This document shows positions 22,627 to 25,600 of a stretch of DNA of 42,534 nt, in pieces. Origin of the DNA: an uncultured Pseudomonadota bacterium (GTDB lineage: Bacteria > Pseudomonadota > Gammaproteobacteria > Steroidobacterales > Steroidobacteraceae); assembly GCA_903884235.1 (NCBI GenBank), contig CAISEB010000056.1, positions 1 to 42,534 on the forward strand, written 5' to 3'. The notes beneath the pieces are model-generated. The model saw only the letters and a list, made by a program, of their open reading frames with translations, was not told the origin of the DNA and did not search any database. Made by a program: the position numbers and the translations under genes. Numbering within the stretch: position 1 is the first letter of the stretch; each line of letters begins with the position of its first letter.

Positions 22627-25600
22627 GTGCTCAAGCTCGTGACTTCGATCTTCGGCAGCCGCAACCAGCGCCTGCTCCGCCAGTACGGCAAGCTCGTCGC
22701 GGCCGCCAATGCCCTCGACGACAAGATGCGCGCCATCCCGGACGACGGCTATCCGGCACTCACCGCGGCGTTCAAGGAGCGCCTCGCCAAGGGCGAGACG
22801 CTGGACGACGTGCTACCCGAGGCCTTCGCGGCGGTACGCGAGGCCGCGCGCCGGACGATCGGCCTCAGGCACTTCGACGTGCAGCTGCTCGGCGGCATCG
22901 CGCTGCACCAGGGCAAGATCGCCGAGATGCGCACCGGCGAGGGCAAGACGCTGGTCGCGACGCTGCCCGTCTACCTGAACGCGCTCGCGGGCAAGGGCGC
23001 GCATGTCGTCACCGTCAACGACTATCTCGCCAGTCGCGACGCCGACTGGATGGCCCCCGTCTACAAGTTCCTAGGCATGACGGTCGGCGTGATCCGCTCT
23101 CAGCAGAGCTCCGAGGAAAAGCGTGCCGCGTACGCGTGCGACATCACCTACGGCACCAACAACGAATACGGCTTCGACTACTTGCGCGACAACCTCGCGT
23201 TCCGCCTCGAGGACCGCGTGCAGCGCGGCCTGCAGTTCGCGATCGTTGACGAAGTCGACTCGATCCTGATTGACGAGGCCCGCACGCCGCTGATCATCTC
23301 CGGCCCGGCGGAGGAGAGCACCGAGCTCTACCTCGCGATCAACAAGCTGGTGCCGCGCCTGACGCGCTCCGAGGCGGAGGAGCAGGAAGTCCCGGCGGGC
23401 CTGTACGTCACCGCCGTCGATCGCGGCACCTTCGGCGGCGACCTCAGGGTCGGCGACGTCGTCCTGAAGGCCGGCGCCACGCCGGCGCTGCGTCCGTCGG
23501 ACGTCGCCAACGCGCTCGCGAGCGCCAAGGGCGCGAAGCGCGTGACGCTCGAGGTCTGGCGCGAACGCTCGCGCCACAGCGTGCCGGTCGAGCTGCCGGT
23601 CAGCGGCAAGGTCATGGTCGAGGGCCAGGGCGCGGCGATGAACGTGCAGGGCGCGTCGCTGGAGATCCTGGCGGACGACCAGCGCGAGGCGCTCGGTGTC
23701 GGTGGCGACTACTGGGTGGACGAGAAGCAGAAGCAGGTGCACCTGACCGAGGTCGGTCACCACACGGTCGAGAAGCTGTTCGCGGAGGCGGGCCTGCTGC
23801 GCGACGGCGGCAGCCTGTACGACGCAGGCAACATCCGACTGATGCATCACCTGAATGCGGCGCTGCGCGCCCATGGCATCTACCACAAGGACATCGAGTA
23901 CATCGTCCGCAACGGCGAAGTGATCATCGTCGACGAGTTCACCGGGCGCACGATGCCCGGCCGTCGCTGGTCCGATGGCCTGCACCAGGCGGTCGAGGCG
24001 AAGGAAGGCGTGGAGGTTCGCGAGGAGAACCAGACCATCGCCTCGATCACCTTCCAGAACTTCTTCCGCATGTACGGCACGCTCGCCGGCATGACCGGCA
24101 CCGCCGACACCGAGGCCTACGAGTTCCAGCAGATCTACGGCCTCGAGGTCGTCGTGGTCCCGACGCACCGCCCGATGGTGCGCAAGGACCACTCGGACCT
24201 CGTCTACCTGACCCAGGAAGACAAGTTCGACGCGATCGTCGAGGACATTCGCGACTGCCTCGCGCGCAAGCAGCCGGTGCTGGTCGGCACGACCTCCATC
24301 GAGGCCTCAGAGCTCCTGGCCAAGCTGCTGACGAAGCAGGGCATCGACCACGAGGTGCTGAACGCCAAGCAGCATGAGCGGGAGGCGCACATCGTCGCGC
24401 AGGCGGGCCGCCCCGGCGCCGTGACGATCGCGACCAACATGGCCGGCCGCGGCACCGACATCGTGCTCGGCGGCCGTCCGGCCGCGGAGCCCGGTGCGGC
24501 GCCCGACGACGCGGTGACCTTGCAGCGCAAGCATGCCGAGTGGCAGGAGCGGCACGCCGAGGTGCTCGCGGCCGGTGGCCTGCACATCATCGGCACCGAG
24601 CGCCATGAATCCCGGCGCATCGACAACCAGCTGCGCGGTCGCTCGGGCCGCCAGGGTGACCCGGGCTCGTCGCGCTTCTACCTGTCGCTCGACGACAACC
24701 TGATGCGCATCTTCGGCGACCCGGCCAAGATGAAGGCGCTGCTGTCGCGCGTGGGCATGAAGGCCGGCGAAGCGATCGAGAGCGCCCTGCTGACGCGCCA
24801 GATCGAGAAGGCGCAGCGCAAGGTCGAGGCCTACAACTTCGACCTGCGCAAGAACCTGCTCGAGTACGACGACGTCGCCAACGACCAGCGCAAGGTCATC
24901 TACAGCCAGCGCAACGAGCTGATGGCGGCCGACGATATCGCCGACACGATCGCGACCCTGCGCCGCGACGTGGTCGAGAGCCTCGTGCTCGCGGCGGTAC
25001 CGCCCGAGAGCGTCGAGGACCACTGGAACCTGGCGACGCTGCAGGAGACCCTGGCCCGGGACTTCGACCTGCCGGTGGACATCGTCGGCTGGATGGCTGC
25101 GGACCGCAGCCGCGCCGGGCGCGAGCTCGACGCCCACCTCAATGAGCTGCTCGAGGCCGCCTACCGGGCCAAGGAAGAGCAGGTCGGCGCGACGGACCTG
25201 CGCCGCATCGAGCGCACGCTGATGCTGCAGATGGTGGACAGCCACTGGCGCGAGCATCTCGGCGCGATGGACTACATGCGCCAGGGCATCTTCCTGCGTT
25301 CCTACGCGCAGAAGAACCCCAAGCAGGAGTACAAGCGCGAAGCGTTCGAGATGTTCTCCTCGATGCTCGACCGCATCAAGTACGCGGCGATCACGCTGCT
25401 GGCCCGCATGCAGGTCCGCTCCGAGGCCGACCTTGAGCGCGAGGAGGCCGAGCGCAAGGCCAAGCTCGAGCGTGCGATGCAGTTCCAGCACGCCGCGCCG
25501 CCGTCGGTCGACCTCGGCACGGATCCGGCGGTTGCCGCCGCCGGCGGCCAGCCGAACGCCGCCGCGCCCGAGCCCGAAGCCGGCGCGCAGGCGCCGTTCC

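Follow-up and report, generated by a model that had tools for sequence, protein, structure and literature searches.

The window, that is, the whole stretch of 42,534 nucleotides analysed here, contains a secA gene at 22627-25794 on the forward strand. The gene begins with a GTG start, encodes 1055 aa in one open frame, and gave the sole SecA_DEAD match in the 4.12-Mb genome. Its product belongs to the SecA family according to TIGR00963 (1090.5 bits against a cut-off of 800), and Pfam searches returned SecA_DEAD, PP_bind, P-loop, SW, and SEC-C domains; PF07517, PF01043, PF21090, and PF07516 were over their cut-offs and lay in SecA order. The protein shares with a typical SecA (TIGR00963) this order of domains above cut-offs, a single copy, and C-terminal SEC-C motifs, and differs from it in a 107-residue PDZ-type domain nested at the start of the preprotein-crosslinking domain (PPXD) and in the presence of two tandem SEC-C motifs. 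These two motifs occupy 25621-25677 and 25717-25773 in the C-terminal tail, and both are also visible in the consensus of a seven-row SecA alignment. Judging by its sequence, the protein is probably an ordinary housekeeping translocase ATPase that carries a nested accessory domain. Upstream of secA lie cell-wall and division genes, encoding a transpeptidase, Mur ligases, an MraY-type transferase, MurB, FtsQ, and FtsZ, as well as a gene for an M23 peptidase and lpxC. The last two are separated by a gene for DciA (20783-21097, reverse strand), on the strand opposite to secA. Directly 3' of secA there is a gene for an acyltransferase-3/SGNH fusion (25879-28023, forward strand), and the region 36849-42259 (reverse strand) encodes ZapD, a type IV leader peptidase, and T2SSF-type and T2SSE/MshEN-type proteins, resembling a type IV pilus cluster.

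Comparison with short-linker relatives, which are without the block, delimited the insert to residues 253-359 (23383-23703, forward strand). A sequence-only reading of this DNA had proposed about 100 extra residues at 23392-23694 (residues 256-356); the extra block is real and measures 107 residues, while its true span is slightly wider than proposed. The stretch from LVPRL to DYWVDEK comprises 127 aa in the window compared with 23 aa in five short congeners, and short SecA forms overall have 22-35 residues between these two motifs. The insert is preceded by a stretch at 23320-23361 (forward strand) that was placed by SecA alignments and that we take to be the first PPXD helix. On its other side it adjoins the GDYWVDEK hairpin of the PPXD, lying N-terminal to it, and in the alignments SecA's own sequence resumes with this hairpin (23704-23751, forward strand) directly after the insert. 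Three parts could be distinguished on the forward strand. According to PDZ and DegP profile matches, residues 258-324 (23398-23598), which open with GLYVTAVD, form a body derived from PDZ1. In the alignments this body is followed by a variable linker at residues 325-340 (23599-23646), which occupies the place of the linker between PDZ1 and PDZ2 of DegP, and finally by a PDZ2-derived piece at residues 341-359 (23647-23703), which matches the start of DegP PDZ2 (LGLSLRPLTPAERRAAGV). The same boundaries were found across 15 aligned inserts, in all of which the core residues G31, DV, and WR are invariant. The GC content at third codon positions was 0.944 in the insert and 0.935 in secA.

By profile, the insert is of PDZ type. 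Searches with the whole SecA of the window yielded PDZ_6 with an E-value of 6e-4 and PDZ_2 with 1e-3 over residues 258-323. With the 127-aa piece alone, these values improved to 3.6e-5 (PDZ_6) and 5.2e-5 (PDZ_2), each at 23.9 bits and below the Pfam cut-off of 27. PDZ_2 matched all 15 inserts (E up to 0.01; best 2.5e-9). When ten sequences, two of which represent the same insert, were scored singly, five of the nine distinct inserts were above 27 bits, one was at 27.0, and three, including that of the window, were below. No protease family (trypsin-like domain) was found by Pfam in the window's SecA. The carboxylate-binding loop of PDZ domains has the motif hydrophobic-Gly-hydrophobic. Of the 18 inserts, 15 retain its glycine, the exceptions being G007, G009, and G014, and 7 have L or F before it; the window has VQGASL, without a hydrophobic residue at that place. 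The loss of the glycine in 3 of 18 inserts and the missing hydrophobic residue in the window make it less likely that the inserts have the classical binding of C-terminal peptides in common.

The profile matches pointed more specifically to the tandem PDZ region of DegP/HtrA. The DegP model TIGR02037 matched 15/15 inserts (best 1.4e-10), and a profile built from the 15 inserts retrieved a solved DegP-like chain from the PDB with an E-value of 7.6e-15 over positions 18-120, spanning the border between PDZ1 and PDZ2. The DegP of the window's own genome, identified by a TIGR02037 score of 484.5 bits (cut-off 416.2), was matched by the insert at 1.3e-18 over 16-124 of 127 positions. Furthermore, profile-profile comparison of the inserts with 15 DegP segments gave 99.5% (E 3.6e-23, 113 columns), compared with 0.3% in a control in which the PDZ inserts were compared with the inserts of the IF3N type described below. 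All 15 DegP segments of this comparison match TIGR02037; the other 21 of the 36 DegP segments sampled were taken as DegP from their match to the insert profile together with the alignment. The best identity of each insert to the 36 segments was 30-44%, with 30% for the window, whose identity to its own DegP was 27%. Inserts and DegP align with few gaps from the PDZ1 strand to the first PDZ2 helix, and the alignment also covers the EVWRDR stretch present in DegP of the window's family. Unlike DegP/HtrA, the insert has no protease domain, resides in a cytosolic host protein, comprises one repeat period only, and has the part that opens a PDZ at its C-terminal end.

We also searched the DegP frames with a profile restricted to the 22 C-terminal residues of the insert. 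Its best place was the PDZ2 start in 35 of 36 frames (e.g., LGLSLRPLTPAERRAAG), and 24 of the 36 beat the best of 1080 shuffled frames; 11 others did not exceed that shuffled score, and the remaining frame had no match. As the match continues past the end of PDZ1 and across the PDZ1/PDZ2 border, the insert corresponds to one repeat period. A plain insertion of PDZ1 was ruled out, because the C-terminal piece belongs to PDZ2. In terms of sequence elements, the insert appears to span from the PDZ1 strand G(A/L)xV to just before the equivalent strand of PDZ2, ending with the first PDZ2 helix, and its common descent with the DegP/HtrA tandem PDZ region is well supported. The order of elements is shifted by one repeat boundary, making the insert a permuted PDZ in sequence order. 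If folded, it would be a register-shifted (permuted) PDZ with one element moved and its two ends adjacent. A circular permutation that sets bacterial PDZ domains apart from their metazoan counterparts has already been described (PMC6411480), and the register of the insert would be a further shift beyond that permutation. The proposal of a PDZ domain within the PPXD therefore stands as to its type, with PDZ_2 and the DegP-like chain both recovered by profile searches; instead of a complete, ordinary PDZ, however, the insert comprises a single DegP repeat period that extends from PDZ1 to the start of PDZ2.

To place the insert in a wider context, SecA was searched in 98 genomes, and 109 loci were fetched, 108 of them with a SecA-like frame (none in L101, two pieces in L099). 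In L099 (G019:C97:3000-7300), SecA is divided between two frames, with the break close to where the PPXD begins; a frameshift in the draft assembly may be the cause. In addition, two relatives have a second, divergent SecA-like frame, of 687 aa in L097 (G074; SecA_DEAD E 1e-93) and 747 aa in L098 (G058; 5e-91). The insert was found in at least 18 genomes, all of the window's family (f1) and belonging to four genera. These are G000, G003, G005-G009, G011, and G014 in the window's genus (g1); G020, G057, G123, and G187 in g7; G023 and G125 in g10; and G027, G046, and G100, the last equated with the genome that contains locus L108 because contig number and length agree, in g14. A PDZ-type block in the SecA PPXD common to related genomes, as had been supposed, was thus borne out, with PDZ_2 present in every one of the aligned inserts. 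Fixation in a clade was not: even within genus g1, the own genome included, the insert is present in 9 of 14 readable genomes and absent from G001, G002, G004, G010, and G013 (G012 was unreadable). A search of 246 genomes of the order with the insert profile detected SecA inserts in 11, all of f1, the weakest at 1.8e-40; below them came a gap and then protease-type frames at 2e-19 and weaker. Across 369 genomes of the class, the sole insert match at 1e-18, among the candidates scored per genome, was the window's own genome, and none of the SecA_DEAD match spans among the matches listed indicated an insertion of PDZ size. No insert match listed in the genome searches of relatives contains an internal stop. 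The recurrence of the insert in separately assembled genomes (18 in total), without stops inside, shows that it is not an assembly error, a concern raised with the original proposal.

In a tree of the 18 SecA inserts and 36 DegP segments (those fetched rather than every match), the SecA inserts formed one clade (100/99), also after the SecA flank columns were removed (100/99). This single clade ruled out several independent captures from DegP, and the PDZ insert most likely arose once. We then mapped its presence on a quickly built SecA-core tree with 95 rows and insert columns excluded, from which genome repeats (the window row, L102-L107, and L109), fragments or broken copies (L095, L096, L099, and L100), and the second SecA-like paralogues L097 and L098 were left out. 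The PDZ state requires six changes on this tree, at least five of which were forced by strong branches. In the insert tree, genus g10 falls inside genus g1. The arrangement predicted by the SecA tree nevertheless passed an AU test without being rejected (p 0.12; the group was named after tree inspection). Sliding identity indicated that near the insert the SecA of genus g7 resembles that of g1, and an informative-site test of g7 against g1 gave p 0.007-0.17 over the window sizes tried, with 3 to 10 sites near the insert; two control targets gave p 1.0 and a third (G002) 0.23-0.38. The patchy spread may reflect one old gain followed by many losses, or lateral exchange, and the data do not separate the two.

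The same loop carries a different block in ten relatives from families f4, f6, f7, f8, and f15, all ten of which matched Pfam IF3_N. The first member of this set matched PF05198 at 8e-17 (61.6 bits against 26.9), and the best PDB match of these inserts, to IF3 chains, was 5.5e-15. Inserts of this type (IF3N) were present in SecA-length frames of at least 88 of the 246 order genomes, counting matches down to 2.0e-18 in frames of at least 359 aa, and none of these genomes was in f1; a 945-aa frame in G673 (2.8e-15) is possibly one more IF3N-bearing SecA. Among the matches listed for the 369 class genomes, which extend to weaker scores than those typical of IF3N inserts, SecA-length frames with IF3N occurred only in two genomes of the window's order, G065 and G073. 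The 31 IF3N inserts formed one clade against 27 short frames taken as IF3 (100/99 with flanks, 95/98 without). Profile comparison limited the similarity between PDZ and IF3N inserts to 14 SecA-flank columns, and IF3_N was matched neither in the window's SecA nor in the 15 PDZ inserts. The two kinds of SecA thus share the loop, the C-terminal junction, and the formation of one clade by each insert, and differ in that the IF3 N-terminal domain (PF05198) is an unrelated domain found in sister families of the order; a sister relationship between the Steroidobacter and Woeseia groups is reported in the accessible part of PMC7082342. In both insert types, the last residue lies immediately before GD[YF] in the hairpin, and at this junction DegP (GGLLVEE) and IF3 (GKYLFE) resemble SecA (GDYWVDE). 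We conjecture that such local similarity may have helped recombination. With two unrelated modules at one PPXD loop, the loop is a recurrent insertion site.

The insert is under selection, but loosely. Its pN/pS was below 1 in 11/11 pairs, ranging from 0.27 to 0.76 compared with 0.06-0.26 for the rest of SecA; the 11 pairs are not all independent and the values are uncorrected proportions. A search of 38 relatives, the own genome included, detected SecB in 33, which led us to reject the insert as a replacement for a missing SecB. SecB was not found in G003 and G023 (insert-bearing), G021 and G070 (short), or G064 (IF3N). Since all three SecA forms occur among these genomes, there is no clear link between SecB and the insert.

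What might the domain do? Unfolded exported proteins are clients of DegP as well as of SecA, which makes a docking role plausible. In the reading that we prefer, and to which we give about an even chance, the nested PDZ-type domain derived from DegP would form a permuted PDZ in the PPXD loop and provide a weak accessory docking face beside the clamp. It would sit in the loop that joins the first helix of the PPXD to the hairpin, where a register-shifted PDZ could fold with its two ends together and leave the PPXD undisturbed. The mobile PPXD would gain a weak extra face for docking proteins or peptides beside the preprotein clamp, and exported proteins or a partner are candidate clients. In DegP, a motif at the C-terminus of substrates is recognised by PDZ1 (PMC12445088). 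The PPXD alternates between a closed and an open position and surrounds the substrate (PMC5963308), and the SecYEG-touching parts of the PPXD run from helix 3 onward (PMC5603524), so that a domain placed before the hairpin need not clash with them. Several observations speak against a docking domain, namely the score of the window copy below the Pfam cut-off (23.9 against 27), the loose constraint, the lack of the insert in five of the 14 genomes that could be read in the genus, the erosion of the carboxylate-loop motif in some copies, the SecB of the own genome, and the DegP frames that did no better than shuffles or had no match in the test of the C-terminal piece.

Many of the same observations would fit a tolerated passenger, in which a fragment of DegP, by chance the length of one repeat period, inserted a single time into a surface loop that tolerates additions, folded harmlessly, and has since been kept or lost almost neutrally. 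We consider this reading almost as likely as a docking domain, at somewhat less than an even chance. It accommodates the loose constraint and the eroded peptide-binding motif, the patchy presence with its six changes on the SecA tree, the occupation of this loop by an unrelated module in sister families, and a SecA that is otherwise complete in a genome with SecB. Nevertheless, it has to contend with pN/pS below 1 in every pair and with the invariant PDZ core residues. Moreover, the presence of the insert in four genera and its GC3, similar to that of the rest of secA, argue against a recent arrival.

A third reading, which we consider improbable, is that the insert biases the opening and closing of the PPXD, by steric action or by docking on neighbouring SecA surfaces, without a separate ligand. 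The attachment of the insert to a PPXD described as mobile (PMC5963308) would suit such a modulator, as would residue 376 beside the hairpin. At this position, 14 of the 15 insert-bearing rows have V, A, or M, whereas the five short congeners have G, P, S, R, or S. This signal is weak, however, as outside the genus A is frequent here among short relatives too, one of which has V, and the placement of the SecYEG-touching parts from helix 3 onward (PMC5603524) likewise tells against it. Lastly, an artefact of assembly or gene calling, or a chance PDZ-like stretch, could be suspected from the sub-threshold Pfam score of the window copy and from the draft state of the insert-bearing genomes (8 to 600 contigs), but is practically dismissed by the absence of stops within insert matches, the identical boundaries of 15 inserts, their single clade, the strong profile matches, and above all the separately assembled genomes, which refute it.

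Among the open-access papers listed by the literature searches, judged by title and abstract, no description was found of a PDZ or IF3 domain nested in SecA, in keeping with the earlier statement that no SecA with an internal PDZ domain was known; subscription papers and preprints were outside the scope of this search. SecA is not mentioned in the main text of a survey of microbial PDZ proteins. Known large SecA inserts include conserved signature inserts in the SecA of thermophiles, of 50 aa in Thermotogales/Aquificales and 76 aa in Thermales (PMC7023208). Like the insert studied here, they are large, clade-specific, and located in surface loops of SecA. They differ in lying in the nucleotide-binding (ATPase) domains rather than in the PPXD, and the accessible portion of the same paper does not name them as PDZ or IF3.

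SecA is an essential and strongly conserved protein. The architecture described here is both real and surprising for it, with the identity and origin of the domain well supported and its fold likely, as judged from sequence comparisons. A broader and more tentative idea, which we hold to be possible but rather unlikely, is that the loop between helix 1 and hairpin 1 of the PPXD acts as a plug-in socket. One order would then have twice captured a recognition domain from an unrelated machine and changed where SecA meets its clients, with a DegP PDZ repeat, from quality control, in one family and the ribosome-binding N-domain of IF3, at the ribosome, in others. The loop appears to be a permissive place for attaching modules to SecA, and the PDZ insert seems to exemplify, in nature, the excision of a domain from a tandem repeat in a shifted register. 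Having been used for two separate captures, the loop offers itself as a site at which to study the contacts of the PPXD with substrates and partners.
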